DNA from: Aureimonas ureilytica DSM 18598 = NBRC 106430
GTDB taxonomy: Bacteria; Pseudomonadota; Alphaproteobacteria; Rhizobiales; Rhizobiaceae
Assembly: GCF_000382705.1 (NCBI RefSeq)
Contig: NZ_ARQE01000002.1
Span: forward strand, 248,001 to 312,000
DNA: 64,000 nt
Direction of reading: 5' to 3'
Under the pieces are notes generated by a model, which worked only from the letters and a program-made list of their open reading frames with translations, did not search any database and was not told the DNA's origin. Both the position numbers and the translations under genes were made by a program. Shown here piece by piece: positions 7,226 to 24,156 of this stretch. Position 1 is the first letter of the stretch; each line of letters opens with the position of its first letter.

Positions 7226-7769
7226 TGAACCCGCACAACAGCTTCAGGGACTTGCGAGGCGATCTCAGCCCCTTCCCGCGCAGCTGACGCCGGTCCCTTA
7301 CACATGCTCACCGCGAGATGATCGTTCTCGAAGCCGCCTGCCTTGGACGGTTGGGTCTTGGGGTCGATCGGGTCCTCGACGCCCCGCAGACGATCGTCGT
7401 CGCCCTAGCTCTCGCAATGTCCTCGAAAAGCTCGTCCGTTATCCGAATCTCGTCGCCGTAGAGCAGCGTCTGGCGGCCTCCTTCACGGCGTCCTCGGGTC
7501 GCGTGCTCGTTCGACACGGCTCTCTTCCTCAGTGTCGGCATAGGGCCTGCAGAATCTTGGGTTCCAGCGCAACGAAACGTCAGCCGGAGGGTGCCCACGC
7601 AAAGCAGAAGCTTCTCCGGCCTCGATGCATGCCTTTGGACGGCTGAGGTCGGAAACCCCGAACATGTTGCCTCGCGGCTGACATCGCTTCTTTCTATCCG
7701 GACCGGCCGCCGTACATCGACCGCAGGAAGTGGGGACATCCGGGGGAACGGACGGCGAAAGGCGGCACC
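7226..7769. other. intergenic stretch at the island edge, no gene recognised
   Basis: 544 bases between tRNA-Val and the hydrolase gene. Frames are open on both strands because of the high GC content, but none gives a recognisable protein or has a plausible start with a ribosome binding site. It could hold decayed sequence from the insertion event. No repeat of the tRNA-Val 3' end, integrase fragment or IS end was seen. Confidence 0.5.
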
Positions 7770-8657
7770 ATGTTCGAAGGGTTCAGGCTGGAGCGGGTCG
7801 TCTTGACCGAGGCGACGCTCCGCGTTCGCGTCGGCGGCAGCGGCCCACCGCTCCTCCTCCTCCACGGCCACCCGCGCACCCACGCCACCTGGCATCGCGT
7901 CGCGCCGGTCCTCGCCGAGCGCTTTACCGTCGTGTGTCCGGACCTGCGCGGCTTTGGCGAATCCTCCAAGCCCGCCGACACGCCCGACCATTCCGGCTCG
8001 TCGAAACGGGCGAAAGCGCGCGATTGCGTCGAGCTGATGCGCCATTTCGGATTCGATCGCTTCGGGCTCGTCGGCCATGACCGGGGGTCTTACACCGCGT
8101 TCCGCACGGCGATGGATCATCCGGGCTCGGTCAGTCGACTCGTCATCCTCGACGGCATACCGATCGCGGACGCGTTGGCCCGCTGCGACGCCCGGTTCGC
8201 CAGCGCCTGGTGGCACTGGTTCTTCTTCGCTCAAAGCCAGAAACCCGAACGGGCGATCCTTGCCGACCCCGACGCCTGGTATGGCGGAGAACCCGACGTA
8301 ATGAGCGAGGATGCCTATGCCGACTTCCGGCGCGCCATCCACGACCCCGCGACCGTCCACGGCATGGTCGAGGACTACCGCGCCGGGCTCGGGATCGACC
8401 GAGCTCACGACGAGGCGGACCGGGCCGCGGGGCGCAAGCTCGCCTGCCCTCTCCTCGTCCTGTGGTCGGCCCGCGACGATCTCGAACAGCTCCATGGCGA
8501 CATAGTGGAGATCTGGCGCGGTTGGGCCGCAGACGTGCGCGGACACAGCCTCGATTGCGGACATCACATGGCCGAGGAGGCGCCGGAAGAACTGGCCGCG
8601 GACCTCGCGCAGTTCTTCGAAGGTCCGACAGGAACGCGGCCTACGATCCCCACGTGA
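7770..8657 (+). CDS. alpha/beta hydrolase, haloacetate dehalogenase (DehH1/FAcD)-like
   Basis: 295 aa cytoplasmic alpha/beta hydrolase. The oxyanion loop HGHPRTHATW, nucleophile elbow VGHDRGS with D104, W147-W150 (WWHW) and the C-terminal GHHMAEEAPEE histidine (H265) match the fluoroacetate/haloacetate dehalogenase group. That group uses Asp instead of Ser as nucleophile and attacks the alpha carbon of short halo-acids. R105 is present, but the second carboxylate-binding Arg, three residues later in fluoroacetate dehalogenase, is Y108 here, so the substrate may differ. The start follows an AAAGGCGG site. It stands alone at the island edge. Family assignment is good; substrate is unknown. Confidence 0.85.
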   Translation: MFEGFRLERVVLTEATLRVRVGGSGPPLLLLHGHPRTHATWHRVAPVLAERFTVVCPDLRGFGESSKPADTPDHSGSSKRAKARDCVELMRHFGFDRFGLVGHDRGSYTAFRTAMDHPGSVSRLVILDGIPIADALARCDARFASAWWHWFFFAQSQKPERAILADPDAWYGGEPDVMSEDAYADFRRAIHDPATVHGMVEDYRAGLGIDRAHDEADRAAGRKLACPLLVLWSARDDLEQLHGDIVEIWRGWAADVRGHSLDCGHHMAEEAPEELAADLAQFFEGPTGTRPTIPT

Positions 8658-8904
8658 AGCCACCGACGGTGGGTCTTATCCAATGGCGCTCCGTCGGCGC
8701 GGCACCGGCATTCCCGAGGACTCATGTTCTGGCGCAAGAGCCTGAGGTTCGATGGCAACGAACGAGTCTTGCAAGCTCCCTCAAAGGCCAAGGCTGGAAC
8801 GTCGCCGCCCCGTCCTTGGTTGTGTCGCTAGGGTCGAGAGGGTGAGTTGACCAAGGGTGTGATGAACGCGTGGGAGATCGAGTAGCTGTCATGGCGGCGG
8901 ATGC

Positions 8905-9213
8905 ATGAAAACCGAAAAAACGGCCCGACTTCGCAAGGGTCCGCAGATGATGGGCGGGCCGATGAATTTCCTCGTGTCGGTCGATACGCGAATCGACGGC
9001 GACATCGTCCTTCCCCCCGATCGATATCAGGGGACGGTCGCCTGGAAGGAAACGGCGACACGGTCAGGCGTCGAGCGATCCAAGAAGCGCTACAAGATCG
9101 AACTTCCCGCAGCGGATGTCGTGCGCTGGGGCGGCGCTCCGGTGACGGGCGGAGCGACATGTTGGATCGACATCAGCACCGAGGTGGCCTCTGGTGAGAT
9201 CAAGACGCTCTGA
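8905..9213 (+). CDS. hypothetical protein, 102 aa
   Basis: A small soluble protein of unknown function. It begins MKTEKTARLRKGPQMMG, has a central segment with DGDIVLPPDRYQGTVAWKE and ends TEVASGEIKTL. The composition is natural, with mixed charged and hydrophobic residues and no long low-complexity run. GGCGGA precedes the chosen ATG; internal Met codons at residues 15, 16 and 20 are alternatives. No domain was recognised and its neighbours give no strong hint. Confidence 0.55.
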   Translation: MKTEKTARLRKGPQMMGGPMNFLVSVDTRIDGDIVLPPDRYQGTVAWKETATRSGVERSKKRYKIELPAADVVRWGGAPVTGGATCWIDISTEVASGEIKTL

Positions 9214-9549
9214 CCGGGAGGCGACAGGTCCTGCGCATTAGGTCAAGCGACCGCTTTTGACCCTTGCAAGCCGTTTGGCCGGGGACAGCGAGACTCCTGA
9301 AGCCGACCTTCGTGAATGATTCTGAACCTCGTGCGATCAGAGCGTCCACATCTCGGCGATGACAGTTTTTCGTCGTGGTGACATGGAAGACGAGGCGTCT
9401 TTGGAGCCTGCGGGATTGCGCATCCCGAGCGGCATGGCTGGTTGCACGGAAGGATCAGAGCGATCCGACAAATCCTTGAGGTCCACCCTTCAAGCCGCGA
9501 CAATCACCCTCTGACTCGCCAGAAATTGGGGCCCGCAGGATGAGGTTCG
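9214..9549. other. intergenic stretch without recognised gene
   Basis: About 340 bases between the hypothetical gene and the YeeE remnant. An imperfect inverted repeat, GTCAAGCG/CGCTTTTGAC, lies at about 9242-9261. It could be a transcription end or protein site but has no T-run. No credible coding sequence was seen. The missing front part of the YeeE gene was looked for here and not found. Confidence 0.4.
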
Positions 9550-9760
9550 TCCGCGATCCCGCTCCTGGCGAGTGGGCGCATCGCCGGCATCAGCGGCATC
9601 CTCGATGGAGTTCTTGAGCGGGGGACGAGCGGCCACGATGTCTGCGGCATCGCCTGCGCCCTCGCCACCTGGCGGATCTTCATCCGGCCGGTGAAGGCGC
9701 ATCTCTTCGCTACGTTTTCCGATCACGTCCTGACAAGTCGCCAGCGGACCCGCCGTTGGT
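9550..9760 (+). pseudogene. remnant of a YeeE/YedE-family sulfur transporter gene
   Basis: One frame from 9550 reads AIPLLASGRIAGISGILDGV and then GTSGHDVCGI. From memory, the YeeE/YedE (Sulf_transp) family has the motifs NGRIAGISGI near its N-terminus and C-TSGHGVCGI-RLSPRS further on. Here the two motifs are only about 10 residues apart, so the stretch between them is deleted. The sequence after CGI resembles the family better after a shift into the next frame (RLRPRHLADL). There is no start codon or ribosome binding site, and the frame ends soon after. YeeE genes usually accompany exactly the persulfide dioxygenase/ArsR genes that follow here. Confidence 0.6.
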
Positions 9761-9920
9761 TCGGCCAACGCCGCGCTGTCTGATCGGAATCCTGCGTGAT
9801 CAATCTACAAAAACATAGAGCGTCTGAGCCTTTTCTCCTCTTAATTCGCATTCCCCGAAAGTGCCGCATTGATCCTTCGCCGGAAGGGGATTTCATTCGT
9901 CGCCGACAGCCAATGGACGA

Positions 9921-10577
9921 ATGATGAGCGACCAGGACCCATCCTCGATCAAGACCATCGCCCGCATGCCGATGATCGGCGATATCGCGCCGGATTTCGA
10001 ATGCCGCACCACGCACGGCGTCCGTCGCCTGTCCGACCATCGCGGCCGGTGGCTCGTCCTCTTCTCGCATCCTGCGGACTTCACGCCCGTCTGCACGTCC
10101 GAGTTCGTCGCCTTCGCACGGATGGCGCCCGAGTTCGCGCGGGTCGGCTGCGAGCTCCTCGGCCTGTCCGTCGACAGCCTGTTCTCGCACATCGCCTGGG
10201 TGCGCACGATCGAACGGCGCTTCGGCCTCGCCGTCCCCTTCCCGGTCGTCGAGGACCCGTCGATGGCCATCGCTTCGGCCTACGGCATGATCCATCCGGG
10301 CGCCGGCGACAGCGCGACGGTGCGCGGCTGCTTCGTCATCGACCCGCAGGGCGTGATCCGCATGTCCTGCTGGTACCCGATGTCGACGGGTCGGAATGTC
10401 GGGGAGATCCTGCGCACGGTGGTCGCGCTCCAAGTCCACGACGCCGAGGGTGTTTCGACGCCGGAGAACTGGCAGCCGGGTGACGAAGTGATCGAGATGG
10501 CGGCGTTCGAGACCGGCGACGGGCGCGACGTGGCCGAGTGGTTCTACCAAACGCGCAAGCTGGAGGCTGCGGAATGA
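9921..10577 (+). CDS. peroxiredoxin (1-Cys, Prx6-like)
   Basis: 218 aa thiol peroxidase of the AhpC/TSA superfamily. The peroxidatic cysteine is C58 in the motif HPADFTPVCTSEF, and a Prx6-type C-terminal domain follows with NWQPGDEVIEMA. There are other cysteines (C28, C87, C132 region), so a resolving Cys cannot be excluded. It would reduce peroxides or organic hydroperoxides in the cytoplasm, and in this setting possibly polysulfide-derived species. It is the first gene of the sulfide operon; its stop codon overlaps the next start (ATGA). Two adjacent ATG codons at 9921 and 9924 are equivalent starts. Confidence 0.92.
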   Translation: MMSDQDPSSIKTIARMPMIGDIAPDFECRTTHGVRRLSDHRGRWLVLFSHPADFTPVCTSEFVAFARMAPEFARVGCELLGLSVDSLFSHIAWVRTIERRFGLAVPFPVVEDPSMAIASAYGMIHPGAGDSATVRGCFVIDPQGVIRMSCWYPMSTGRNVGEILRTVVALQVHDAEGVSTPENWQPGDEVIEMAAFETGDGRDVAEWFYQTRKLEAAE

Positions 10578-11461
10578 GCGTTCCCATCGTCAAGGGCTTG
10601 TTCGACCCCCGCACCTTCTCGATCCAGTATGTCGCCGCCTGTCCCGACACGAAGCGATGCGCCATCATCGATCCCGTACTCGACTTCGACGAGAAGTCCG
10701 GCGCCACGGGGACGGTCAGTGCCGACGCCATCCTGGCCTATGTCGAGGCCGAGGGGCTGACGGTGGAATGGATCCTCGACACGCATCCGCACGCCGACCA
10801 CTTCTCGGCAGCCCGATACCTGAAGGAGCGGACTGGCGCGCCGACGGCGATCGGCGAAAGAGTGATCGAGGTCCAGACGCTCTGGAAGGACATCTACAAC
10901 TGGCCGTCCTTCCCGACCGACGGCTCGCAATGGGACAAGCTGTTCACTGAGGGCGAGCGCTTCCGAATCGGCGAGATCGACGCGCATGTCCTCTTTTCGC
11001 CCGGCCATACGCTTGCCTCCATCACCTACGTGATCGGCGACGCCGCCTTCGTGCATGACACGCTGTTCATGCCCGACAGCGGAACCGCGCGGGCGGACTT
11101 TCCGGGCGGCAGCGCCTCGCGCCTCTGGAACTCGATCCAGGGCATCCTCGCGCTTCCCGACGAGACCCGCGTCTTCGTCGGACACGATTACCAGCCGGGC
11201 GGCCGCGAGCCGATGTGGGAAGCGACGGTGGCGGAACATAAGCGCTCCAACATCCATCTGACGAAGGCGGCGACCGAAGCGGAGTTCATCGCGATCCGCG
11301 AGGCCCGCGACCGGACGTTGCCGATGCCCAAGCTCATCCTGCATTCGCTCCAGGTCAACATGAGCGGCGGGCGACTGCCCGAGCCGGAGGACAACGGCCG
11401 CCGCTACCTGAAGATCCCGCTGGATACGCTCGGCGGCGCCCCATGGAACGAGGCTGCCTGA
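10574..11461 (+). CDS. MBL-fold hydrolase, persulfide dioxygenase / Blh-type
   Basis: 295 aa metallo-beta-lactamase-fold protein of the ETHE1/Blh group, which oxidises glutathione persulfide to sulfite with O2 at a mononuclear iron. The motif H71-x-H73-x-D75-H76 (THPHADH), the later SPGHT histidine, the MPDSGTARAD aspartate and VGHDY are all present. It starts with an ATG overlapping the peroxiredoxin stop (ATGA) and ends one base before the ArsR-type gene, so the three are translated from one message. Unlike the two-domain Blh of Agrobacterium and Xylella, the DUF442 domain is not on this protein but on the SQR encoded two genes later. Confidence 0.9.
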   Translation: MSVPIVKGLFDPRTFSIQYVAACPDTKRCAIIDPVLDFDEKSGATGTVSADAILAYVEAEGLTVEWILDTHPHADHFSAARYLKERTGAPTAIGERVIEVQTLWKDIYNWPSFPTDGSQWDKLFTEGERFRIGEIDAHVLFSPGHTLASITYVIGDAAFVHDTLFMPDSGTARADFPGGSASRLWNSIQGILALPDETRVFVGHDYQPGGREPMWEATVAEHKRSNIHLTKAATEAEFIAIREARDRTLPMPKLILHSLQVNMSGGRLPEPEDNGRRYLKIPLDTLGGAPWNEAA

Positions 11462-11462
11462 C

Positions 11463-11897
11463 ATGTCGCCGCCGCTCGGTCGCCGCCCGGACGACGCCGC
11501 AAGGGCCGCCGAGTTCCTGAAGCGGCTCGGCAACCCGGGCCGCATGGCCATCGTCGCGCGGCTGCGCGAAGGCGAAATGACGGTGGCGGAGATGGAAACG
11601 GAGCTCGGGCTGCGCCAGCCGTCCCTTTCCCAGCAGCTTGCCGACCTGCGGGCGGGCGGGATCGTCGAGGCCCGGCGGGAAGCAAAGTCCGTCCGGTATC
11701 GCCTGACCGACGATCGGGCGAAGAAGGTGATCGACCTTTGCGACCTGCTCTTCGGCCCCGCGCCCGCGCGACCGGCGTCGGGCCTGGCTCCTGACGCGAA
11801 CCCAGGCACGGCTGTGAGGCCCCGCATCGGGGCCGCGGTTTTCGCGAAGGTCGGCACCCGTCTGCCGCCACGCACGGACGGCGCCGCCGACGCCTGA
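11463..11897 (+). CDS. ArsR/SmtB-family transcriptional regulator, BigR/SqrR-like
   Basis: 144 aa winged-helix repressor. The core from LGNPGRMAIVARL through LGLRQPSLSQQLADLR to REAKSVRYRLTDDRA matches the BigR/SqrR group, which senses persulfides by forming a tetrasulfide between two cysteines. Here only one cysteine exists in the whole protein, C93 in DLCDLLF. The position in the first helix region where BigR has its other Cys is occupied by Ala (IVARL). A 45-residue Pro/Ala-rich tail follows the core. Lying inside the sulfide operon, it is probably an autoregulator, but its sensing chemistry must differ from the two-Cys model. Confidence 0.9.
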   Translation: MSPPLGRRPDDAARAAEFLKRLGNPGRMAIVARLREGEMTVAEMETELGLRQPSLSQQLADLRAGGIVEARREAKSVRYRLTDDRAKKVIDLCDLLFGPAPARPASGLAPDANPGTAVRPRIGAAVFAKVGTRLPPRTDGAADA

Positions 11898-11988
11898 TCG
11901 GGTGGCGGACGCGTCGATGGCATGCCGCCCGCACGGGCAACCGTGCCGAGCCGAAGCGAACGAACCGAACCCTCGGGAGGATCACGAG

Positions 11989-13677
11989 ATGACCATCAAG
12001 ACGCTCGATGAGGCCCTTTCGGTCTCCCCGCAGATCTCCGTTTCCGATCTGCCGAAGCTGAGGGAACAGGGCTTCCGCTCGGTGATCGTCAACCGCCCGG
12101 ACGGCGAGGAGCCAAAACAGCCGAGCTTCGGCGAGATCGAGACGGCCGCCCGCTCCCTCGGCATGGAAGCGCGCCATGTTCCGATCAGGCCGGGCGAGCA
12201 GACGCAGGCCGACGTCGATGCCTTCCGTAGGGCCTCTGAGGCTCTGCCGAAGCCTATCCTCGGCTACTGCCGTTCGGGCACGCGCTCGGCGACCCTCTGG
12301 GCGCTCGCTCGGGACGGGCGGATGCCGCGGGAGGAGATCGTCGCCCGCGCCGGGCAAGCGGGATACGACGTGACGAAGGCCCTGGCCGCGCGTCCCGTAC
12401 CCTCTTCGGCGGCAGGGGCGAACGGCGAGATGCGCCATGACATCGTGATCGTCGGCGCCGGAACGGGCGGACTTGCCGCGGCAGCCAGCATGTTGGCGCG
12501 GGTCTCCGGTCTCGACATCGCGGTCATCGACCCGGCCGACGTGCATGACTACCAGCCGGGCTGGACGCTTGTCGGCGCAGGCATCTTCACCCCGCAAGAA
12601 ACCCGGCGCGACATGGCGTCCCTGATCCCCAAGGACGCCACTTGGATCCGGGCATCCGTTTCGGCCTTCGAGCCTCAGACGGACACGGTCGTCCTGTCGG
12701 ACGGGCGCAGGGTCGTCTACCGGAAGCTGGTCGCCGCACCCGGCATCGAGCTGAACTGGTCCGCGATCGAGGGTCTGGAGGAGACGCTCGGCCGGAACGG
12801 CGTCACTTCGAACTACCGCTACGATCTCGCTCCCTACACGTGGAAGCTCGTCCAGGGCCTCAAGGGCGGAAAGGCCCTGTTCTCGCAGCCGCCGATGCCG
12901 ATCAAGTGCGCGGGCGCACCGCAGAAGGCGATGTACCTTTCCTGCGACCACTGGCGCTCGAAAGGGTGGCTAGACTCCACGAAAGTGGAGTTCCTGAACG
13001 CGGGACCCGTCCTGTTCGGCGTCGCGGACTACGTGCCGCCCTTGATGGAGTACATAAAGACCTACGGCATCGAACTCTCGTTCAGCCACAACCTCGTGAA
13101 GGTCGATGGCTCCTCGAAGAGAGCCTGGTTCGAGCGGAAGGACAGGGACGGCCAGACGCAGATCGTGGGGCGCGAGTTCGACATGCTCCATGTCGTGCCA
13201 CCCCAACGCGCTCCGGAGTTCGTCCGCAACTCGGCGCTCGCCAACGAGGCGGGCTGGATCGAGGTCGATCCCTCGACGCTGCGCCATGTTCGCTTCCCCA
13301 ACATCTACGCGCTCGGCGATGCGACCTGCACGACCAACGCCAAGACGATGGCCGCGGCCCGCAAGCAGGCCCCGGTCGTTGCCGAGAACCTCCTGCGCGA
13401 TCTCGGACGCCTGAACCTCGAGGCGGTGGCGATCTACGACGGCTACGGGTCCTGCCCGTTGACGGTCGAACGCGGAAAGGTCGTGCTCGCCGAGTTCGCC
13501 TACGGCGGCAAGCGGGTCCCGAGCTTCCCCAAATGGTTCATCGACGACCTGAAGCCCTCGAAGGCGGCCTGGCTGCTGAAGGAGCGCCTGCTTCCGCAGG
13601 TCTACTGGCGCGGCATGCTGAAGGGCCGCGAGCCGATGGCCAAACCTGCCCACGCCCCGTTGAAGACGGTGGCCTGA
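11989..13677 (+). CDS. DUF442 phosphatase-like / sulfide:quinone oxidoreductase fusion
   Basis: 562 aa fusion. Residues 1-135 form a DUF442 (TIGR01244-type) dual-specificity-phosphatase-like or sulfurtransferase-like domain with the loop C94-RSGT-R99-S. Residues 150-562 are a flavoprotein of the sulfide:quinone oxidoreductase family with the FAD motif GAGTGG (156-161) and DYQPGW. PIKCAGAPQKAMYLS places C307 like the catalytic Cys of type II SQR, and GDATCTTN gives C447 near the second redox Cys; C489 is extra. It would oxidise H2S to a persulfide and reduce the membrane quinone pool. The start follows GGGAGGATCACGAG; an open extension upstream lacks such a site. Confidence 0.9.
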   Translation: MTIKTLDEALSVSPQISVSDLPKLREQGFRSVIVNRPDGEEPKQPSFGEIETAARSLGMEARHVPIRPGEQTQADVDAFRRASEALPKPILGYCRSGTRSATLWALARDGRMPREEIVARAGQAGYDVTKALAARPVPSSAAGANGEMRHDIVIVGAGTGGLAAAASMLARVSGLDIAVIDPADVHDYQPGWTLVGAGIFTPQETRRDMASLIPKDATWIRASVSAFEPQTDTVVLSDGRRVVYRKLVAAPGIELNWSAIEGLEETLGRNGVTSNYRYDLAPYTWKLVQGLKGGKALFSQPPMPIKCAGAPQKAMYLSCDHWRSKGWLDSTKVEFLNAGPVLFGVADYVPPLMEYIKTYGIELSFSHNLVKVDGSSKRAWFERKDRDGQTQIVGREFDMLHVVPPQRAPEFVRNSALANEAGWIEVDPSTLRHVRFPNIYALGDATCTTNAKTMAAARKQAPVVAENLLRDLGRLNLEAVAIYDGYGSCPLTVERGKVVLAEFAYGGKRVPSFPKWFIDDLKPSKAAWLLKERLLPQVYWRGMLKGREPMAKPAHAPLKTVA

Positions 13678-13737
13678 GGCGGTCGCCAATGTCGGGGCCG
13701 GCCGCGCTCCCTGTCTCCTCAACCACTGGAGGTCCCG

Positions 13738-14526
13738 ATGGTCCTCGAACCGCTGCAATACGGCCTCGGCGCCGTCTCGGGCTCGCTGGTCGGCTTCACC
13801 CTCGGCCTGTTCGGCGGCGGCGGGTCGATCCTTGCCGTTCCCCTGATGGCCTATCTCGTCGGCGTGCCGAGCGCCCACATGGCCATCGGCACCAGCGCGT
13901 TCGCGGTGGCGGTCAACGCCGCGACGGGTCTTGCCAGCCACGCGAGGCAGGGCACCGTGAAATGGCGCTGCGCGGCGCTCTACAGCATCGCCGGCGTCGC
14001 GGGGGCCGCGCTCGGTTCGACCATCGGCAAGGCGATCGACGGCGAGAAGCTCCTGTTCCTCTTCGCGCTCCTGATGCTGGTCATGGCCGTGCTGATGTTC
14101 CGTGGACGGGGCAAGGTCGGAATACCGGGTGCGGAGTGCAACCGCGAAAAGGCACCCAAGGTCCTCGGGTTCGGCGCCGCTACGGGCATCTTCTCCGGGT
14201 TCTTCGGGATCGGGGGCGGTTTTCTGATCGTCCCCGGCCTCGTTGCCTCGACGGGAATGCCGATCCTCAACGCCATCGGCTCGTCGCTGGTCGCCGTCAC
14301 GGCCTTCGGCCTCACGACGTCCGTCAACTATGCGCTTTCGGGCCTCGTGGACTGGCGGCTCGCGTTCGTCTTCGTCGCCGGCGGCGTCGCGGGCGGGCTG
14401 GTCGGCGTCCTGAGCGCCAAGCGTATGTCCGCCCGCAAGGGCGTTCTCAACGTGGCCTTCGCGGGCCTCGTCTGCTGTGTCGCCGTCTACATGCTGGTCC
14501 GAAGCGCGGGCAGCTTCGGCGGCTGA
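13738..14526 (+). CDS. TauE/SafE-family sulfite (or related anion) exporter
   Basis: 262 aa membrane protein with about eight hydrophobic segments arranged as two related halves. Each half has the signature glycine-rich loop (LGLFGGGGSILAVPL near residues 23-37 and FFGIGGGFLIVPG in the second half). Family members export sulfite, sulfoacetate or other organosulfur anions. Directly behind the SQR gene, with a GGAGG site six bases before ATG, the natural role is removal of sulfite made by the persulfide dioxygenase. The substrate is inferred from context, not from residues. Confidence 0.92.
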   Translation: MVLEPLQYGLGAVSGSLVGFTLGLFGGGGSILAVPLMAYLVGVPSAHMAIGTSAFAVAVNAATGLASHARQGTVKWRCAALYSIAGVAGAALGSTIGKAIDGEKLLFLFALLMLVMAVLMFRGRGKVGIPGAECNREKAPKVLGFGAATGIFSGFFGIGGGFLIVPGLVASTGMPILNAIGSSLVAVTAFGLTTSVNYALSGLVDWRLAFVFVAGGVAGGLVGVLSAKRMSARKGVLNVAFAGLVCCVAVYMLVRSAGSFGG

Positions 14527-14691
14527 CGTGGACGTCTCGTCCAGTGGTCCATCGACATGGAACCCCGTTTCATGCCGGCGGAACGTGCGGATCGAAGCAA
14601 ACGCTCCGATCCGTGACCCAGGCGGAACCGACGCGGCGACATCCCGCTGAAGCCTCTCGAAGCGTCTTCGCATGACGAAGGGACACTCATC

Positions 14692-16119
14692 ATGTTCGAT
14701 ACACTCGACCCCGTTCTCCTGGCGCGAATCCAGTTCGCGTTCACGGTCGCGTTCCACTTCATCTTCCCCGCCTTCTCGATCGGGCTCGCGTCCTTTCTGG
14801 CGGTCTGCAACGGAATGTGGCTGGCGACGGGTCGGCAGGTCTACCTGACCCTCTTCCAGTTCTGGCTGAAGATCTTCGCTCTGTCCTTCGCCATGGGCGT
14901 CGTGTCGGGCATCGTCATGAGCTACCAGTTCGGCACCAACTGGAGCGTCTTCTCCGACCGGACGGGCCCAATCCTCGGCCCGATGATGGCCTACGAGGTG
15001 TTGTCGGCGTTCTTCCTCGAAGCGGGCTTCCTCGGCGTCATGCTGTTCGGCCTGAATCGCGTCGGCAAGGGCCTGCACTTCTTCGCGACGTTGATGGTCG
15101 CGATCGGGACCCTCGGGTCCGCCTTCTGGATCCTGTCGGTGAACTCGTGGATGCAGACCCCGGTCGGTAACTCGGTCGCCGCCAACGGCCAGTTCGTGCC
15201 CGAGGACTGGTGGGCCATCGTCTTCAACCCGTCCTTTCCGTACCGACTGGCGCACACCGTCCTCGCGGCCTACCTGACGACGGCCTTCATCGTCGGTGCC
15301 GTCGGCGCCTTCCATCTCCTGCGCAACCGCCACAACGGCCCGGCCCGCAAGATGTTCTCCATGGCCCTCTGGATGGCGACGATCGTCGCGCCGATCCAGA
15401 TCTTCGCCGGGGACGCGCACGGGCTGAATACGCTGGAGCACCAGCCGATGAAGGTCGCGGCCATGGAGGGTCATTTCGAGACGACCCGCGACGGCGGAAT
15501 GCCCCTCACCCTGTTCGGCCTGCCGGACATGGAAAAAGGCCGCATGCGCGCCGAGATCGGCATCCCGAACGTCGGCTCGCTGATCCTGACCCACTCGCTC
15601 GAGGGCGAAGTCGCCGGCCTCGACCAGTTCCCGAAGGAGGACTGGCCCAACGTCTGGATCGTCTTCTTCACCTTCCGGATCATGGTCGGCATCGGCTTCG
15701 CGATGCTCGGCATCGGCCTGTGGGGTCTCTGGCGCCGCTGGAAGGGAACGATCTACGACGCGCCGTGGCTCCAGCGCGCCATGGTCGCCATGGGTCCGTC
15801 CGGGCTCGTCGCGGTGATCTGCGGCTGGTTTACGACCGAGGTCGGGCGCCAGCCCTACACGGTCTACGGCCTCCTGCGCACGGCCGAAAGCCATTCGCCG
15901 ATCGAGGCTGCGGCGGTCGGTGCGTCGCTCGTCGCCTTCGTCCTCGTCTACTTCGCCGTCTTCGGAGCCGGCACCTACTACATCATGCGCCTGATGGGAC
16001 GCGGACCGAGCGTCTTCGAGACGGGTCCGGACCCGCGCGAGCCGATCCGCACCGCCGGCATCACGCCGGGCCCCGCCATGGACACGCAGGAGGGCCCCGT
16101 CTCCGGGGCCCGCATCTGA
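14692..16119 (+). CDS. cioA: cytochrome bd-type ubiquinol oxidase subunit I (cyanide-insensitive type)
   Basis: 475 aa. The haem ligands are visible: H22 (FHFIF), H188 (YRLAHTV) and M331 (FRIMVG), with proton-path acids E102 and E110 and the quinol-binding GDAHGLNTLEHQPMK signature at 240-254. The Q-loop is short, as in CIO-type oxidases rather than the long-loop E. coli CydA. It oxidises quinol and reduces O2 to water in the inner membrane. bd oxidases are resistant to sulfide, which fits the adjacent SQR. A GAAGGGAC site precedes the start; the gap of 165 bases from TauE may hold its own promoter. Confidence 0.95.
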   Translation: MFDTLDPVLLARIQFAFTVAFHFIFPAFSIGLASFLAVCNGMWLATGRQVYLTLFQFWLKIFALSFAMGVVSGIVMSYQFGTNWSVFSDRTGPILGPMMAYEVLSAFFLEAGFLGVMLFGLNRVGKGLHFFATLMVAIGTLGSAFWILSVNSWMQTPVGNSVAANGQFVPEDWWAIVFNPSFPYRLAHTVLAAYLTTAFIVGAVGAFHLLRNRHNGPARKMFSMALWMATIVAPIQIFAGDAHGLNTLEHQPMKVAAMEGHFETTRDGGMPLTLFGLPDMEKGRMRAEIGIPNVGSLILTHSLEGEVAGLDQFPKEDWPNVWIVFFTFRIMVGIGFAMLGIGLWGLWRRWKGTIYDAPWLQRAMVAMGPSGLVAVICGWFTTEVGRQPYTVYGLLRTAESHSPIEAAAVGASLVAFVLVYFAVFGAGTYYIMRLMGRGPSVFETGPDPREPIRTAGITPGPAMDTQEGPVSGARI

Positions 16120-16132
16120 CAGGAGGCGACCG

Positions 16133-17146
16133 ATGGACCTTCCCCTGACCTGGGCCTTCATCCTCGCCTTCGCCGTTCTCGCCTATGTGGTGCTCGACGG
16201 CTTCGACCTCGGTATCGGGATCCTGTTTCCGTTCCTGAAGCGACACGAGGACCGCGACACGGCCATGAACACGATCGCCCCCTTCTGGGACGGCAACGAG
16301 ACTTGGCTGGTGCTGGGCGGCGGAGGCCTCTTCGCGGCGTTCCCGCTCGCTTACGCGATTGTCATGCCCGCCCTCTACGCGCCGATCATCGCCATGCTGC
16401 TCGCGCTGATCTTCCGGGGCGTCGCCTTCGAGTTCCGCTGGAAGACGGTGCGCTGGCGCGGCGTCTGGGACCTGTCCTTCTTCGTCGGCTCCGTGGTGGC
16501 GGCGTTCGCGCAAGGTGTCTCGCTCGGCACGATCGTGCAGGGCATCGAGGTCGCGGACCGGGCCTACGCGGGTGGCAATTTCGACTGGCTGACGCCCTTT
16601 TCGGCCGCGACCGGCATAGCGGTCGTCATCGGATATGCGTTGCTCGGCGCGACGTGGATCATCATGAAGACGGACGGCCCGCTCAACCGCCTGGCTGCCC
16701 GCTACGCCATGGGCCTCGCCGTCGGCACGCTGGCCGCCGTCGCGCTCGTGTCGGCCTGGATGCCCTTCCTCCAGCCGACCTTCTTCTCGCGCTGGTTCGC
16801 CGTTCCGCAGGTTCTCTTCGTCGCGCCGATCCCGCTCCTCGTCGCCCTTGCGGCCTTCAGCCTGTTCAAGGCGCTTCGCGACCACGTCTCGAACTACCGC
16901 CCGTTCCTGTCGGCTCTGGCGATCTTCGTTCTGTCCTTCGTCGGCATCGGAATCTCGTTCTACCCGAACATCCTGCCGCCCGAGCTCACGATCTGGCAGG
17001 CCGCGGCACCGGACTCCAGCCTCGTCTTCCTCCTCGTCGGCGCCGCCGTCCTGATTCCGACGATCCTCGCCTACACGGCCTATTCCTATTGGGTCTTCCG
17101 GGGAAAGGTCGTCGAGGGCGAGGGTTACCACACCCACAACCACTGA
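16133..17146 (+). CDS. cioB: cytochrome bd-type ubiquinol oxidase subunit II
   Basis: 337 aa partner of subunit I with about eight transmembrane helices. The N-terminus LVLDGFDLGIGILFPF region is characteristic (VVLDGFDLGIG), as are APFWDGNETWLV and the later WIIMKTDG. It begins 13 bases after cioA with a perfect AGGAGG ribosome binding site, so the two are cotranscribed. It ends with YHTHNH, a short His-rich tail. Confidence 0.95.
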   Translation: MDLPLTWAFILAFAVLAYVVLDGFDLGIGILFPFLKRHEDRDTAMNTIAPFWDGNETWLVLGGGGLFAAFPLAYAIVMPALYAPIIAMLLALIFRGVAFEFRWKTVRWRGVWDLSFFVGSVVAAFAQGVSLGTIVQGIEVADRAYAGGNFDWLTPFSAATGIAVVIGYALLGATWIIMKTDGPLNRLAARYAMGLAVGTLAAVALVSAWMPFLQPTFFSRWFAVPQVLFVAPIPLLVALAAFSLFKALRDHVSNYRPFLSALAIFVLSFVGIGISFYPNILPPELTIWQAAAPDSSLVFLLVGAAVLIPTILAYTAYSYWVFRGKVVEGEGYHTHNH

Positions 17147-17155
17147 AGGCACGTC

Positions 17156-17293
17156 ATGCCCATGCCCCACGCCGCCCTCGAACGCCTCCCGCGCCGGGTG
17201 CGTCAGCTTGCCTGGTTCGTCGCGCTGTGGGTCGGCAGCGTCGCCGCGCTCGGCATGGTGGCGCTGGCCATCCGCTGGGTGCTTGCGCCCTGA
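17156..17293 (+). CDS. small membrane protein, DUF2474/CydX-like third subunit of the bd oxidase
   Basis: 45 codons starting nine bases after cioB. The peptide has a basic N-terminal half (LERLPRRVRQL) and one transmembrane helix (WFVALWVGSVAALGMVALA), ending IRWVLAP. The layout of basic residues, one helix and a W near the end, directly behind cydB, is that of the DUF2474/CydX-type accessory subunits which stabilise bd oxidases. A second ATG two codons in is possible. It is too short for routine gene callers. Confidence 0.75.
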   Translation: MPMPHAALERLPRRVRQLAWFVALWVGSVAALGMVALAIRWVLAP

Positions 17294-17620
17294 CGTCACG
17301 GGTCAGGGCAAAGAGGAGGAAGCGACCGTGCCGGAGGGCGGCGACGCTGCTCCCATCACGACCTTATCGACTGTCTGTCCGTGGAGGCCAAAGGGCGAAT
17401 TCCGGTACCGCCGCCGCACCCGGCAGGCCGATGGTCAGCGCGAGGCCGGGCACCCTTCCCCGGACACCCGGCACGCGCGGGGTTCCGCCGTCTCGGGTGT
17501 TCCAGTTCCGCCGCGCCAACCCCGGGTGAGGGTCAGGCGCCGACGCGATGCCATCGCGAACTCCCGGGCGCCCGTGAGGGGCCTGAAGGAGAACGGTGGG
17601 GTCGCCAGCTTAAGGGAGAC
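17294..17620. other. intergenic stretch between convergent cio genes and histidine kinase
   Basis: 327 bases with no recognised gene. A GTG behind GAGGAGGAAG at 17329 opens a frame, but the product is not protein-like. A single CTTAAG half-site lies near 17609, close to the kinase stop codon; it lacks the partner hexamer seen at 19696-19712. No strong intrinsic terminator was found for either flanking gene. Confidence 0.45.
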
Positions 17621-18985
17621 TCAGGGTTTTCGTTCGGGCTCAAGGTTTCGCCCGCCGAACCGCAGCATCGCGGAAAAGCCCCGGGGAGCGAGGTTGGCCA
17701 GGACGAGCTCGGCGTCCATGCGTCTGGCGCAGAGTTCGACGATGGTCAGGCCGAGCCCGCTGCCCACCGACGTCCGGTTCGCGCCACGGAAGAAGCGCTC
17801 GGCTGCGCGCCCGATCTCTTCCTCCTTCATGCCGTCCCCGGCATCCACGACCTCGAGGCGCGAGGCGTCCCAGCGCACCGTGACCAGGCCGCCGTCGGGC
17901 GAATGGTTGATGGCGTTTTCGACGAGGTTTCGGACGGCCAGTCCCGCCAGGATCTCGTCCACGGCGGGATCGGCATCGTCCGCGGGAGGCATCAGGGCGA
18001 TGCCGATACCCCGGGCGGCCGCCCGGCCCGCCTGCTCGTCCGCAACCTCCCGCACGATCCGGCCCAGTTCGGCCCGCGTCCCGGACCGCTCACCGCCGGC
18101 CGCTTCGGCACCAGCCGTGTCGAGAAGCTGGCGCACGAGGCGCGAAGTCCGCTCCACCGCCGCCACGATCTGCGTCAGCGCCGTTCGGCGGACGTCCTCC
18201 CGGTCGGTGCGCAGGGAGATCTCCGCCTGCGTCTTCAAGCCGGCGAGCGGAGTACGGAGTTCGTGGGCGGCGTAGGCCAGGAAGTGGCGCTCCCGCTCCC
18301 GCGTCTCGTGCACACGGCTGAACAGGCCGTTGAGGGCGGTGACGACGGGCCGGATCTCGGAGGCGGCGCCGTCCGAGGGGATGGGTTGCAGATCACCCGC
18401 CTCCCGATGCGCCAGTCCGTTCGCCAACCGGTCCAGAGGACGCATGCCGCGTCCGACGCCGATCCAGAGCAGGACGCCGAGCGCAGAAATGACCAGCAGC
18501 ATGGGAAGGATCAGGCCCTTGACCACGTCCCGCACGAGGCGCGCACGGATGTCGAGATTGTCGCCGACCAGCACCTGCACCCCGGCCGCCTCGTTTCGGA
18601 CCGCGTAGACGCGCCATGTTCGCCCATTGATGTCTCGCTCCGAGAAGCCTTCCGACGCGTCGGACATGCGCGTCTCGGGCGCGCCGTCGGACCGTCCGAG
18701 GAGCGAGCCCGAAAGGGACCAGATCTGGCAGGAAATCTGCCGCTCGTAGGCATTGTGCTGGCGCGGCGGAATGGCGACGGCATCGAGCGAGGCCACGGTC
18801 ACGTCGATTTCCTGGTTGTCGACCAGGGATGACACCATGCGCGCCGCCTCGGTCAGGCGCGCGTCGAGAACGCGCTCCACCTCCGCTCTCGTGCTGAAAT
18901 AGATCCAACCCGTCGCAAAGGCCCAGACGAGTCCCGTGCTGAGCACGAGGATGACGAAGAGCCGCCCTTTTAACGATCCGGTCAT
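17621..18985 (-). CDS. sensor histidine kinase, QseC/PmrB-like
   Basis: 454 aa inner-membrane kinase. A first helix (residues 9-31), a periplasmic domain of about 125 residues with one Cys (C86), a second helix (159-177), HAMP linker, H-box YAAHELRTPLAG with phospho-accepting H241, N-box RNLVENAINHSP, G1 box VDAGDG and G2 SGLGLTIV are in the usual order. Its ATG overlaps the regulator stop (ATGA), so it is translationally coupled. The ligand is unknown. Its position back to back with the thiol-redox operon suggests it senses envelope or metal stress. Confidence 0.93.
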   Translation of the reverse strand: MTGSLKGRLFVILVLSTGLVWAFATGWIYFSTRAEVERVLDARLTEAARMVSSLVDNQEIDVTVASLDAVAIPPRQHNAYERQISCQIWSLSGSLLGRSDGAPETRMSDASEGFSERDINGRTWRVYAVRNEAAGVQVLVGDNLDIRARLVRDVVKGLILPMLLVISALGVLLWIGVGRGMRPLDRLANGLAHREAGDLQPIPSDGAASEIRPVVTALNGLFSRVHETRERERHFLAYAAHELRTPLAGLKTQAEISLRTDREDVRRTALTQIVAAVERTSRLVRQLLDTAGAEAAGGERSGTRAELGRIVREVADEQAGRAAARGIGIALMPPADDADPAVDEILAGLAVRNLVENAINHSPDGGLVTVRWDASRLEVVDAGDGMKEEEIGRAAERFFRGANRTSVGSGLGLTIVELCARRMDAELVLANLAPRGFSAMLRFGGRNLEPERKP

Positions 18986-19647
18986 CGCACAGGCTCCGCC
19001 ATCCGGTAGCCGACGCCGCGCACGGTCTCGATGGAGCGGCTGCCGAGCTTGGCCCGCAGGTTGTGGATGTGGACCTCGACCGCGTTGCTCTCGACGCCCT
19101 CCTGAAAGCCGTAGAGCTTCTCCTCGATCTGCGCCTTGGAGATGATCGAGCGGGGGCGTTCCATCAAGGCGTGGAGCACGCGGAACTCCCGGCGCGACAG
19201 ATGGACCTCCCCAGCCGCGTTGCGCGCCGTCATCTGCGCCGGGTCGAGCGTCACGCCGTTCCAGGTCAGGCAGGCTGTCGGCCGCTGGACGGCACGCCGC
19301 AGAAGGGCGCGCAGCCGCGCCGAGACCTCGTCGAGATCGAAGGGTTTACCGAGATGGTCGTCCGCTCCCGCGTCGAGCCCCGCGATTCGGTCGGCGACAG
19401 AATCGAGCGCGGTCAGGAACAGGGCGGGCGTCGCGTCGCCGCGCGCGCGCAGGCGCTGGAGAAGCGTCCGCCCGGAGCCGTCCGGCAGCATGACGTCGAG
19501 GACGACAGCGTCGATCCCGCCGCCTCGCAGTGCCACCTCCGCCTCGTCGCAACGCGTCGCGAGATCGGCGGTGAAGCCGTTCATCTCCAGGCCCACCTTG
19601 AGACCGCTGCCGAGGATGTCGTCGTCCTCCACGATGAGGATGCGCAT
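18982..19647 (-). CDS. OmpR/PmrA-family response regulator
   Basis: 221 aa. The receiver domain starts MRILIVEDDD with acidic pocket E7-D8-D9, phospho-acceptor D51 in VVLDVMLPDG, and K in GKPFD. The C-terminal winged helix ends VRGVGYRMAEP. It resembles QseB/TctD/PmrA regulators. The frame stays open upstream, but ATG at 19647 follows GAAAGG and begins the canonical receiver. The divergent promoter region carries a perfect CTTAAG-N5-CTTAAG site, which is the PmrA/QseB-type operator, so autoregulation and control of the dsbD operon are likely. Confidence 0.94.
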   Translation of the reverse strand: MRILIVEDDDILGSGLKVGLEMNGFTADLATRCDEAEVALRGGGIDAVVLDVMLPDGSGRTLLQRLRARGDATPALFLTALDSVADRIAGLDAGADDHLGKPFDLDEVSARLRALLRRAVQRPTACLTWNGVTLDPAQMTARNAAGEVHLSRREFRVLHALMERPRSIISKAQIEEKLYGFQEGVESNAVEVHIHNLRAKLGSRSIETVRGVGYRMAEPVR

Positions 19648-19695
19648 GGATGCGCCTTTCGTTCGGTTCCTTCCGTTCCCGCCTGGGCGCGGCAC

Positions 19696-19712
19696 CTTAA
19701 GCCTGCCTTAAG
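19696..19712. promoter_or_regulatory. PmrA/QseB-type operator, direct repeat CTTAAG-N5-CTTAAG
   Basis: Two perfect CTTAAG hexamers (19696-19701 and 19707-19712) are separated by five bases, so they repeat every 11 bases on one face of the helix. This equals the PmrA box YTTAAK-N5-YTTAAK as I remember it. CTTAAG is its own reverse complement, so the site can act in both directions. It sits about 48 bases before the response-regulator ATG and about 45 bases before the dsbD ATG. Confidence 0.75.
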
Positions 19713-19757
19713 CTGCCGGGTCGACCCGGGATGCAACGAACGCATCCGAGGGACGCC

Positions 19758-21605
19758 ATGCCGCTCCACCGCCTTCTGCCCTTCGTCCTGGCACTTTTCG
19801 TCGTGGCGCCCGCCGCGGCACAGGTCGCGGAACCGCTGCCGGTCGACCAGGCGTTCCGGCTGACGATCCAGCCGGGAACGGCAGGGTCGCGAACGACGGC
19901 CTCGTTCGAGATCGCGGACGGATACTATCTCTACAAGGACAGGATTGCCGTCGAAACCCCGACCGGCGCGCCGCTTGCGATCGACCTGCCGGCGGGCGAG
20001 CGCAAGGACGACCCGACCTTCGGCTCCACCGAGGTCTACCATCGGGCCGTGTCCGCCGGGCTGGCCTTGCCCTCGGACCTTCCGCCCGAACTCACGGTGA
20101 CCTACCAGGGCTGCCAGGAGGGCGGCATCTGCTACCGCCCGGTGTCGAGGACGTTCGATCCCGCCGCGGGACTCCAGCCGAACGCGGGAGCCGTGTCGGC
20201 TCCGCGCTCCGCAGCCGGCTGGACGGCAGGTAGCGAGCCGACAGAGACGACCGTCAGCAACCTGCCCACCGATGCGGCCTCCTCCTCCTCCTCCGGAATC
20301 CGAACCGACGCGTCGGCTGGTGGGCTCGTCGTCTCGCTCCTCGGCGAGGGCGGTGCGCCCTGGGTGGTCGCCTCGTTCTTCGTCCTCGGACTCGGGCTCG
20401 CCTTCACACCCTGCGTCTTCCCCATGTACCCAATTCTTGCCGGACAATTGTCGCGCGGCGAGGGACGGGTGTCGCCCGCGCGCGGTTTCTCGCTTTCACT
20501 TGCCTATGTCCTGTCGATGGCGGCTGCCTTCGGACTGCTCGGCCTCGTGGCGGCCTGGTCCGGGCAGAACCTCCAGCTCGCCCTCCAGTCGCCCACGGCC
20601 GTCGTCCTCATGTCCGCCGTCTTCGTCGGCCTCGCCCTGTCCATGTTCGGCCTGTTCGAGCTCCGCTTGCCGGGCGCCTGGGTCAATGCCGTTGCGGGCA
20701 GCGTCGGCCGGGCGGGCGGAAGCCTCCCGTCGAGCGCGGCGCTGGGCTTCACCTCCGCGCTGATCGTCGGCCCCTGCGTGACCGCGCCGCTTGCCGGCGC
20801 TCTGATCTACATCGCGCAGTCGGGCGACGTCGCGCTGGGCGCAGCGGCCCTGTTCGCTCTCGGCCTCGGCCAGGGCGTACCGCTCCTCGCATTCGGAACC
20901 CTGGGCGCGCGCGTCCTCCCCCGGGCAGGCCCATGGATGGTCGGCGTGACACGCGCCTTCGGCTTCGCGTTCCTCGCCCTGGCGGTCTGGATGCTGTCGC
21001 GCGTGGTGCCGCCGCCGGTCACGCTCCTCCTCTGGTCCGCGCTCCTGATCGGGGGCGGCGTGTTCCTGGGCGCGTTCGACCACCTCACGGGCGCCTCGGG
21101 AGCCGCGCAACGGGTCGCCAAGGCCACCGGGCTCCTCGCGATCCTCTACGGCGCGATCCTCGCGGTGGGCGCCTCGTCCGGCGGGGTGTCGCCCCTTCGC
21201 CCGCTGGCCCTCGGCAACGCCGGCCAGGATGCTTTGAGGGGCCTTGCCGCCAGCTTCCAGACCATCTCGGACCCGGAAGAGCTGTCGTCGACGATCGCGT
21301 CCTCGGAGCGCCCGACCCTCCTCTACTTCACGGCCGACTGGTGCGTATCCTGCGACGTGATCGAGCGAGAGGTGTTTTCCGACCCCGCCGTGCGGATGCA
21401 CCTCAACGGATACCGCCTCCTGAAGGCGGACCTGACGCGGGACGAACCCGGCGGCCGCGCGCTGATGCGTGACCTCGGCGTCGTCGGACCGCCGACCATC
21501 CTGTTCGTCGACCGCGACGCGCGGGAAGTCGGGGGCTCACGCCTCGTGGGAGAGGTCAGCGCCGAAACGTTTCTGCGGTCGGCCCGCCTCGGGACCGGAG
21601 GCTGA
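19758..21605 (+). CDS. dsbD: thiol:disulfide interchange protein DsbD
   Basis: 615 aa inner-membrane electron conduit from cytoplasmic thioredoxin to periplasmic thiol oxidoreductases. All three domains are present. A signal peptide (PFVLALFVVAPAAAQ) is followed by the N-terminal immunoglobulin-like domain with C119 and C125 (GCQEGGIC). Eight transmembrane helices carry the redox cysteines in FTPCVFP and GPCVTAP. The C-terminal thioredoxin domain has DWCVSCDV. The ATG at 19758 has GAGGG upstream; an earlier in-frame start would spoil the signal peptide. It is the first gene of a four-gene thiol-redox operon divergent from the two-component genes. Confidence 0.94.
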   Translation: MPLHRLLPFVLALFVVAPAAAQVAEPLPVDQAFRLTIQPGTAGSRTTASFEIADGYYLYKDRIAVETPTGAPLAIDLPAGERKDDPTFGSTEVYHRAVSAGLALPSDLPPELTVTYQGCQEGGICYRPVSRTFDPAAGLQPNAGAVSAPRSAAGWTAGSEPTETTVSNLPTDAASSSSSGIRTDASAGGLVVSLLGEGGAPWVVASFFVLGLGLAFTPCVFPMYPILAGQLSRGEGRVSPARGFSLSLAYVLSMAAAFGLLGLVAAWSGQNLQLALQSPTAVVLMSAVFVGLALSMFGLFELRLPGAWVNAVAGSVGRAGGSLPSSAALGFTSALIVGPCVTAPLAGALIYIAQSGDVALGAAALFALGLGQGVPLLAFGTLGARVLPRAGPWMVGVTRAFGFAFLALAVWMLSRVVPPPVTLLLWSALLIGGGVFLGAFDHLTGASGAAQRVAKATGLLAILYGAILAVGASSGGVSPLRPLALGNAGQDALRGLAASFQTISDPEELSSTIASSERPTLLYFTADWCVSCDVIEREVFSDPAVRMHLNGYRLLKADLTRDEPGGRALMRDLGVVGPPTILFVDRDAREVGGSRLVGEVSAETFLRSARLGTGG

Positions 21606-21606
21606 G

Positions 21607-22404: not shown

Positions 22405-22460
22405 CGTCTCCCTCTCTTCCTTTCGGCCCGTCCCAATCCGCATCCTGTACGGAGTTTGTC

Positions 22461-23153
22461 ATGCCCGTCGCTTCAACCCTGAGGGTCCTTGCTCTCGCCG
22501 CCGCCGGCCTGTCGGCGGCCGCCTGCACGACAACAAGCCAGCCCCGCCCGGTCGCCTACGCCCCCGAGCCGCCGATCGACGCGGACGCGGCGCGCCTGTA
22601 TGGCGCGCTCGAGGACGGCGGCTGGACCATCCCGGCCGCCGATCTGAAGACGATGGACCCGCGCAACGTTCGGCAGGTCGTGGACTTCCGCACGGACGAG
22701 CCGGTGGGCACGGTGGTGGTCGATCCCCGGGCCCGCTTCCTCTACCTCGTCATGCCCGGCGGCAAGGCGATGCGCTACGGCGTCGGTGTCGGCAAGGCGG
22801 GCCTCGAGTTCACCGGCGAAGGCATTATCGAGCGCAAGGCGGCCTGGCCGCGCTGGACCCCGACGCCCGACATGATCCGACGCGAGCCCGACAAATACGG
22901 CGGCGCGTTGCGCAACGGCATGGAGGGCGGAATCCAGAACCCGCTCGGCGCCCGCGCCCTCTATCTCTTCAAGGACGGCCAGGACACGCTGTTCCGGATC
23001 CACGGCACCAACCAAGCCTGGTCGATCGGCAAGGCCGTGTCGTCGGGCTGCATCCGCATGCTGAACCAGGACATCATCGACCTCAACCGCCGCGTGCCGC
23101 CCAAGACCCGCGTGGTCGTGCTCGGCGCGCCCGCCACGGGAGCCACGTCATGA
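22461..23153 (+). CDS. L,D-transpeptidase (YkuD) lipoprotein
   Basis: 230 aa exported enzyme. A lipobox LSAAAC gives lipidated C22. The YkuD domain runs from about residue 80 and has the catalytic motif H181-G...S195-S-G-C197-I-R. Such enzymes form 3-3 peptidoglycan crosslinks or attach proteins to the wall. Its catalytic thiol must be kept reduced in the periplasm, which explains its place between TlpA-like and DsbA-like genes. A GGAG element precedes the ATG; the stop overlaps the next start (ATGA). Confidence 0.93.
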   Translation: MPVASTLRVLALAAAGLSAAACTTTSQPRPVAYAPEPPIDADAARLYGALEDGGWTIPAADLKTMDPRNVRQVVDFRTDEPVGTVVVDPRARFLYLVMPGGKAMRYGVGVGKAGLEFTGEGIIERKAAWPRWTPTPDMIRREPDKYGGALRNGMEGGIQNPLGARALYLFKDGQDTLFRIHGTNQAWSIGKAVSSGCIRMLNQDIIDLNRRVPPKTRVVVLGAPATGATS

Positions 23154-24130: not shown

Positions 24131-24156
24131 CCAATCGAACCGCCGGAGCGGACCGG

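Follow-up and report, generated by a model that had tools for sequence, protein, structure and literature searches.

Eight consecutive genes on the + strand of a 64,000-nt stretch of the Aureimonas ureilytica genome (hereafter the window; host assembly 5.09 Mb, 44 contigs) set the enzymes of sulfide oxidation beside a terminal oxidase, and the same pairing recurs in other genomes far more often than chance would predict. The block, at 9921-17293, encodes in order a peroxiredoxin (Prx), a persulfide dioxygenase (PDO), an ArsR-family regulator, a sulfide:quinone oxidoreductase (SQR) fused to a DUF442 domain, a TauE/SafE-family permease, both subunits (CioA and CioB) of a cytochrome bd oxidase of the cyanide-insensitive (CIO) type, and a small DUF2474 subunit. 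All eight genes, their order and their common strand had been read from the sequence beforehand; the coordinates bear this out and every gene has a Pfam match above its family cut-off. From this we infer a physiological role: the block is most likely (probability about 0.75) a sulfide-tolerance module in which electrons from H2S would pass through SQR and ubiquinol to CIO and O2 while persulfide would be oxidised to sulfite and exported. The same pathway logic was part of the sequence-only reading, and our results support it as an interpretation of the genes.

SQR and CIO genes are linked in many genomes

In an even draw over the alphaproteobacterial class (385 genomes), 50 genomes contained an SQR match at E <= 1e-60; the stricter E < 1e-110 was reached in 37, that of the window among them. 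Seven added relatives brought the number of other genomes holding this SQR, with or without the DUF442 fusion, to 43, and a bd oxidase match was found in 30 of them (one partial). SQR and bd oxidase lay within 10 kb of each other in 10 of the 30 where 0.19 were expected, an excess of about 50-fold (P = 3e-15, with genomes taken as independent and contig ends ignored), and within 5 kb in six where 0.11 were expected, all six being of the CIO type. Haem-copper oxidases, which served as the control (115 copies in the 43 genomes), were linked in three, with 0.65 expected (P = 0.03). Among 80 named loci (G and L numbers below are our labels for genomes and loci), subunit I is within 10 kb of SQR in at least 18 and is of CIO type in at least 14, both counts being lower bounds because some loci end at contig ends. 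The linkage of SQR and CIO is no quirk of the A. ureilytica genome, and linkage so far above chance justifies the earlier remark that the joining of SQR and PDO to CioAB merits attention. Separately, G033 (L193), G260 and G405 (L116), two of which share a genus, have a haem-copper oxidase subunit I at a distance of 1.1-1.2 kb from SQR.

The order Prx-PDO-ArsR-SQR-TauE-CioA-CioB is found again in Chenggangzhangella methanolivorans (L033), with ~1 kb more between ArsR and SQR, but no match to the eighth gene, DUF2474, was found at that locus. The order SQR-TauE-CioAB occurs in Caulobacter (L081), Brevundimonas (L089), Sphingomonas (L085), L094 and a genome of the same family as the window (L118); the nearest relatives of the block are in the Aurantimonadaceae and Methylopilaceae. 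At one locus (L069) the place of TauE is occupied by a 663-aa transporter ORF that we take, from its sequence, to be of the SulP type. Oxidases 30-36% identical to CioA are also found within 10 kb of SQR at five loci (L045, L061, L071, L155 and L174) and are long-loop bd-I enzymes where their length was read; at L155 and L174 the nearest SQR is of a different type, 36% identical and not fused to DUF442 where read.

On a tree of 50 different subunit I proteins, 27 of them labelled as within 10 kb of SQR (two via the 36% identical SQR), the linkage label needs 13 changes, 11 of which are forced by well supported branches; linkage has therefore been gained or lost many times. The CioA of the window is sister (96/97) to that of a same-family genome, G431. 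In this cluster only very short branches divide the CioAs of Caulobacter, Brevundimonas, Phenylobacterium and Sphingomonas, although the hosts belong to two families, which suggests that CioA has moved between families.

The oxidase and the layout of the block

The oxidase had been described as a short-Q-loop enzyme of the CIO type, and three properties confirm this: its length of 475 aa, the lack of a clear counterpart of Escherichia coli CydA residues ~311-367, and its position on the tree within a 40-row branch of short proteins (445-491 aa) and outside a 10-row branch of proteins of 519-555 aa. The haem and quinol-site residues of E. coli CydA, which we take to be H19, H186, K252, E257 and M393, are identical in CioA in an alignment judged by eye. 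The host genome holds five COX1-family (haem-copper oxidase) matches and two bd matches. A DUF2474 subunit, which marks subtype C of the CIO bd oxidases in the accessible part of a published survey (PMC5322542), is present above the PF10617 cut-off. In Pseudomonas aeruginosa, according to the accessible part of another report, H2S leaves CIO unaffected and CIO expression rises (PMC10968556).

Spacing within the block is tight at its head, where Prx and PDO overlap by 4 nt and PDO and ArsR are 1 nt apart, and at its tail (CioA-CioB, 13 nt; CioB-DUF2474, 9 nt); the intervals between are 91 nt (ArsR-SQR), 60 nt (SQR-TauE) and 165 nt (TauE-CioA). The genes may be transcribed as one to three units. 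Between 9000 and 18000 a scan detected no consensus promoter (0.6 in shuffles) and four terminator-like sites (4.1 in shuffles), with none of the four between genes of the block. Coordinates are collected in the table.

Table 1. Coordinates in the window of the block, its candidate operator, the island and the neighbouring genes
Feature	Position	Strand	Support
Genomic island, up to 16.9 kb	7227..24165		Empty site in three relatives
tRNA-Val(tac) at left edge of island	7150-7225		
Candidate ArsR operator: perfect inverted repeat, 9-bp arms, 14-bp spacer, over Prx start	9893..9924		
Peroxiredoxin (Prx), Prx6/archaeal type, peroxidatic Cys58	9921..10577	+	AhpC-TSA 5e-33 plus 1-cysPrx_C
MBL-fold persulfide dioxygenase (PDO), stand-alone	10574..11461	+	Lactamase_B 1e-17
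ArsR-family regulator	11463..11897	+	HTH_5 4e-9
DUF442-SQR fusion, type II-like SQR	11989..13677	+	BLH_phosphatase (DUF442) 5e-32 plus Pyr_redox_2 7e-14
TauE/SafE-family permease, putative sulfur oxyanion exporter	13738..14526	+	PF01925 171.6 bits, 3e-50
CioA, cytochrome bd subunit I, short Q loop, 475 aa	14692..16119	+	Cyt_bd_oxida_I 4e-167
CioB, cytochrome bd subunit II	16133..17146	+	PF02322 Cyt_bd_oxida_II 338 bits, 6e-101
DUF2474 small subunit, 45 aa, CydX-like	17156..17293	+	PF10617 30.2 bits (cut-off 26.6), 5e-7
Sensor histidine kinase with 2CSK_N domain	17621..18985	-	Homologues near block in L033, L036, L037, L113
OmpR-type response regulator	18982..19695	-	
DsbD-like thiol:disulfide reductase	19731..21605	+	DsbD_TM 4.6e-76; PRK00293 507 bits, cut-off 330
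Membrane protein with TlpA/ResA-like thioredoxin domain	21607..22404	+	
L,D-transpeptidase (YkuD)	22461..23153	+	
DsbA-like thioredoxin	23150..23761	+	

Catalytic residues of the sulfur enzymes

Family matches together with conserved catalytic residues uphold the gene identities assigned beforehand. Human SQOR aligns to the SQR part of the fusion (1e-86, over residues 150-546) and the FAD fold is present. The first SQR redox cysteine, Cys307, whose counterpart we take to be Cys201 of human SQOR, is shared by 109 of the 110 fusion homologues. The second, presumably Cys379 in the human enzyme, is out of register, as Cys447 of the window protein sits two residues further on than the human position; the GD...KT motif contains no cysteine in 89 of the 110 fused homologues and a cysteine in the human register in three. 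The DUF442 domain is rhodanese-like, and its Cys94 is kept in all 110, as is Cys489, with Cys319 kept in 85. It is possible that one canonical SQR cysteine and the DUF442 cysteine together could suffice for turnover. The fold of the fusion is predicted with a pLDDT of 83 and a pTM of 0.69, linker residues 135-145 being uncertain.

PDO aligns to the C-terminal part of Blh, scoring 562.6 bits against the Blh fusion model NF040641 (model positions 141-423) where the cut-off is 625, and matches 9g8t, 4efz and 4ysk in the PDB. An identification as Blh was considered and ruled out: the dioxygenase stands alone and DUF442 is carried by SQR instead. Its metal-binding His/Asp motifs, including H-x-H-x-D-H, are invariant in 109 of 109 homologues. 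About 8 of the 109, this protein among them, form a minor variant marked by the Pro of T-H-P-H, a Leu following GHT and a His preceding D-T-L-F; residue 264 is Ser in the window alone and Arg or Lys in the other 108 of 109. The peroxiredoxin keeps Cys58 in common with all 53 aligned homologues. Four Aurantimonadaceae loci (L034, L038, L040 and L042) contain a second, divergent Prx-PDO pair that faces the block.

The regulator and a candidate operator

The best PDB match of the ArsR winged helix is BigR (3pqj, 1e-17), yet the protein scores only 80.9 bits against the NCBIfam BigR model, for which the cut-off is 155. BigR is governed by a Cys42-Cys108 disulfide (PMC5823870, accessible part), and the corresponding columns hold A32 and G98 in the window protein, whose sole cysteine is Cys93. 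A thiol switch of the BigR/SqrR type, which we had expected at first, was rejected by residue because both sensor cysteines are replaced; of the label "ArsR/BigR-type" given earlier, the ArsR family stands and the BigR-type mechanism falls. The regulator is not alone in this: the first (helix-2) cysteine is missing in 19 of 42 distinct ArsRs from such loci, all 19 with a Prx gene within 1.5 kb, whereas it is retained by each of the 10 ArsRs for which no Prx turned up at that distance. The best ArsR tree has four changes of cysteine state (bootstrap 3-5), only one of them forced by strongly supported branches. The Chenggangzhangella ArsR has, as read here, no cysteine at all, which excludes a thiol switch there.

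Two further patterns among the ArsRs did not hold. A single clade of Prx-associated ArsRs, supported at first by 98/95, dissolved after segments of BigR and SqrR were added, and the placement of these two among the ArsRs is unsettled in that tree. A tie between loss of the helix-2 cysteine and CioAB linkage was also dropped: ArsRs within 10 kb of CioA number 10 of 19 without the cysteine versus 4 of 23 with it, and because there are only four independent pairs, one on well supported branches, no conclusion is drawn.

The inverted repeat over the Prx start is most simply read as a candidate ArsR operator at the head of the block; when the bases of the 261-nt region were shuffled 1000 times, an arm of 9 bp arose in 13 cases. 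Among nine relatives inspected, a 10-bp palindrome in Chenggangzhangella (L033) and a 9-bp one in Methylopila (L036) lie within ~100 nt upstream of Prx, both AT-rich and unlike the repeat of the window in sequence, and the other seven have shorter or more distant palindromes or none among those listed. Single near-matches to the half-site occur elsewhere in the window, one within cioB at 16934; in L033 the half-site pair is found solely before Prx, and the one additional near-match there is at 6231. A SqrR-like box, which we take to be ATTC-N8-GAAT, is absent near the block, and a relaxed ATTC/GAAT pattern (N6 to N10) has two matches in the window, at 3991 and 62828.

The block lies on a genomic island

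Three same-genus relatives (L182, L183 and L185) lack the inserted stretch that carries the block: they match the window to the tRNA-Val end at 7226 and resume from 24166. The spacer at that site is 338, 104 and 272 nt, respectively, versus 16,939 nt in the window; up to ~0.3 kb of the island span may be ordinary spacer. The earlier account, which stopped at 17293, was right about the genes from 9921 onward and incomplete as to extent, since the island continues beyond. On the right flank are what we take to be a hup-like gene, also found in same-genus relatives, and then, presumably, lon. Among 20 same-genus genomes none has an SQR at E <= 1e-60, and we infer that the island was acquired horizontally; the direction, gain here versus loss elsewhere, rests on that count. 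The insertion site was inspected in six of the 20: besides the empty sites, G389 (L186) has ~6.2 kb there with no nucleotide match to the island, in G391 (L184) the distance between tRNA-Val and the tRNA-Asp genes is ~5 kb greater and lon is at another place, and G395 (L187) offers the left side of the site only. A limited search gave no integrase, the few left-end frames tried being without any PHROG or Pfam match, and no exact 10-30 nt repeat of tRNA-Val, as an att site would have, in 23701-24300. The left end of the island also holds an alpha/beta hydrolase (7770-8657) and a 102-aa ORF without a family match (8905-9213); in 9210-9900 and 7227-7770 the tested frames have no Pfam or PHROG match and may be degraded genes.

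To the right of the block the island encodes a two-component system and a set of thiol-disulfide proteins (Table 1). Methylopila (L036) and Hansschlegelia (L037) have homologues of the kinase, regulator, DsbD, L,D-transpeptidase and DsbA upstream of the block, as has Chenggangzhangella (L033), where DsbD is ~11 kb from SQR and a TlpA homologue follows CioB; all three are Methylopilaceae. G431 has the kinase, regulator, L,D-transpeptidase and DsbA at the corresponding place, with DsbD 156 kb away. Since matches to DsbD came from 7 of the 20 genomes searched and from 3 of the 161 loci (L036, L037 and L192; 127 of the 161 have an SQR match), the thiol module is a feature of one branch. These genes raise a different interpretation, in which the island answers oxidant or thiol stress in general (peroxide, copper, disulfide), Prx, ArsR, DsbD, TlpA, DsbA and the two-component system would guard thiols in two compartments, and sulfide would be one part of the challenge. 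The presence of the Dsb and two-component genes on the island, their homologues beside the block in L033, L036, L037 and partly L113, and a regulator that lacks the persulfide switch all fit this interpretation. We nevertheless consider it doubtful, as the cytoplasmic core of SQR and PDO is specific to sulfide and DsbD accompanies so few of the loci.

Discussion

In the sulfide-tolerance module that we favor, the DUF442-SQR fusion would oxidise H2S and deliver two electrons to ubiquinone, and the sulfane sulfur would pass, probably via the DUF442 cysteine, to a thiol of low molecular mass, for instance glutathione. PDO would convert the resulting persulfide to sulfite, the TauE-family permease would export sulfite or thiosulfate, and the peroxiredoxin would clear peroxide or persulfide arising on the way. 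The CIO-type oxidase would re-oxidise the quinol and should work on where sulfide disables the host's haem-copper oxidases, for which there are five COX1-family genes. ArsR would repress from the candidate operator upstream of Prx, its sensing not involving a disulfide of the Cys42-Cys108 kind.

Several observations weigh against this scheme. SQR and bd oxidase are not within 10 kb of each other in 20 of the 30 genomes that have both, and three of the ten linked oxidases (G042, G266 and G473, at 8.6-9.4 kb) are long-loop bd-I enzymes, a call made by match length (1491-1497 nt versus ~1280) with identity of ~30% for two of the three; for the G473 oxidase the closer SQR is a second one, which is of a different type. 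The closest CioA, that of G431 (72%), belongs to a CioAB pair that is not near SQR. The regulator has neither of the BigR sensor cysteines, the permease is assigned a sulfur substrate from its TauE/SafE family match, the half-site pair (at most one mismatch) occurs in the window only at the Prx start, and the 165-nt gap before cioA leaves room for a separate cioAB transcript. The gap, the single candidate operator and the unlinked majority of genomes are also what would be seen if the genes were neighbors without a joint function, cioAB having its own promoter in the gap and serving respiration at low oxygen or in the presence of cyanide, and the sulfide genes forming a separate operon that happened to arrive on the same island. 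Chance proximity of this sort is unlikely, given linkage at about 50 times expectation across several families, the 13 changes of linkage on the oxidase tree and the weak excess of the haem-copper control.

The same genes could instead use sulfide as a source of energy, since SQR and a quinol oxidase suffice in principle for a small proton gradient and would form a minimal lithotrophic chain. To our knowledge, however, CIO pumps no protons; PDO consumes O2 without energy yield, and the genes of the block would export sulfite rather than oxidise it. We regard a lithotrophic role as very unlikely. Returning to sulfide tolerance, the observations can be drawn together in a tentative and more far-reaching form, which we hold to be possible though far from probable as a whole. 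SQR and a sulfide-resistant quinol oxidase would have been assembled repeatedly across Proteobacteria as a transferable unit for sulfide-proof respiration, to which one branch, here and in Methylopilaceae, would have added a dedicated two-component system and a DsbD-TlpA-DsbA relay in the periplasm, so as to counter sulfide stress in both compartments; ArsR would read a non-dithiol signal, perhaps via the Prx that neighbors every ArsR of these loci without the helix-2 cysteine, and SQR would use one canonical cysteine with the DUF442 cysteine as the second.

The linkage gives concrete form to a physiological inference, that bd oxidase carries the electrons of sulfide once its fellow oxidases are poisoned, by offering a set of genes open to transfer, deletion and experiment. 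Such clusters further illustrate where annotation by name fails: an ArsR beside SQR and PDO is not necessarily a thiol sensor of the BigR type, and bacterial DUF442-SQRs need not share the two-cysteine mechanism of human SQOR. The parts of the block are known, and their side-by-side occurrence in many bacteria seems undescribed so far. We found no report in the open literature of SQR and CIO genes adjacent as a recurrent unit; most subscription papers were outside the search and may describe it. A survey of more than 200 bd gene clusters (PMC5322542) contains the word sulfide 0 times in its main text, figures aside, and the link to SQR therefore seems unnoted there.

Comparison with known systems

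The CioAB-DUF2474 order is that of CIO subtype C bd oxidases as given in the accessible part of Degli Esposti 2015 (PMC5322542). The bigR operon of Xylella and Agrobacterium, which in the accessible text encodes BigR, Blh (a fusion of DUF442 and a sulfur dioxygenase, SDO) and a TauE-related transporter (PMC5823870), likewise clusters an ArsR-family regulator, DUF442, a persulfide dioxygenase and a TauE-family permease. The A. ureilytica block, by contrast, joins DUF442 to SQR and leaves the dioxygenase on its own, includes Prx and CioAB besides, and has a regulator without Cys42 and Cys108. The cst operon of Staphylococcus aureus (CstR, CstA, CstB and SQR; PMC8148161) similarly groups SQR with a persulfide dioxygenase for the detoxification of sulfide, but its regulator is CstR and the accessible part of that source names no terminal oxidase for it. 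A further parallel is Acinetobacter baumannii, in which SQR-PDO1-TauE and cydAB are co-induced and, as the authors propose, coupled via ubiquinone (PMC7315123, accessible part); the idea of an SQR-quinone-cytochrome bd coupling is already in print. The enzymes and the proposed ubiquinone coupling are the same in both; in A. baumannii, however, the PDO1-SQR-TauE operon is controlled by FisR, a sigma-54 type activator, and cydAB is in a separate operon, whereas in A. ureilytica the CIO genes lie within the block itself.

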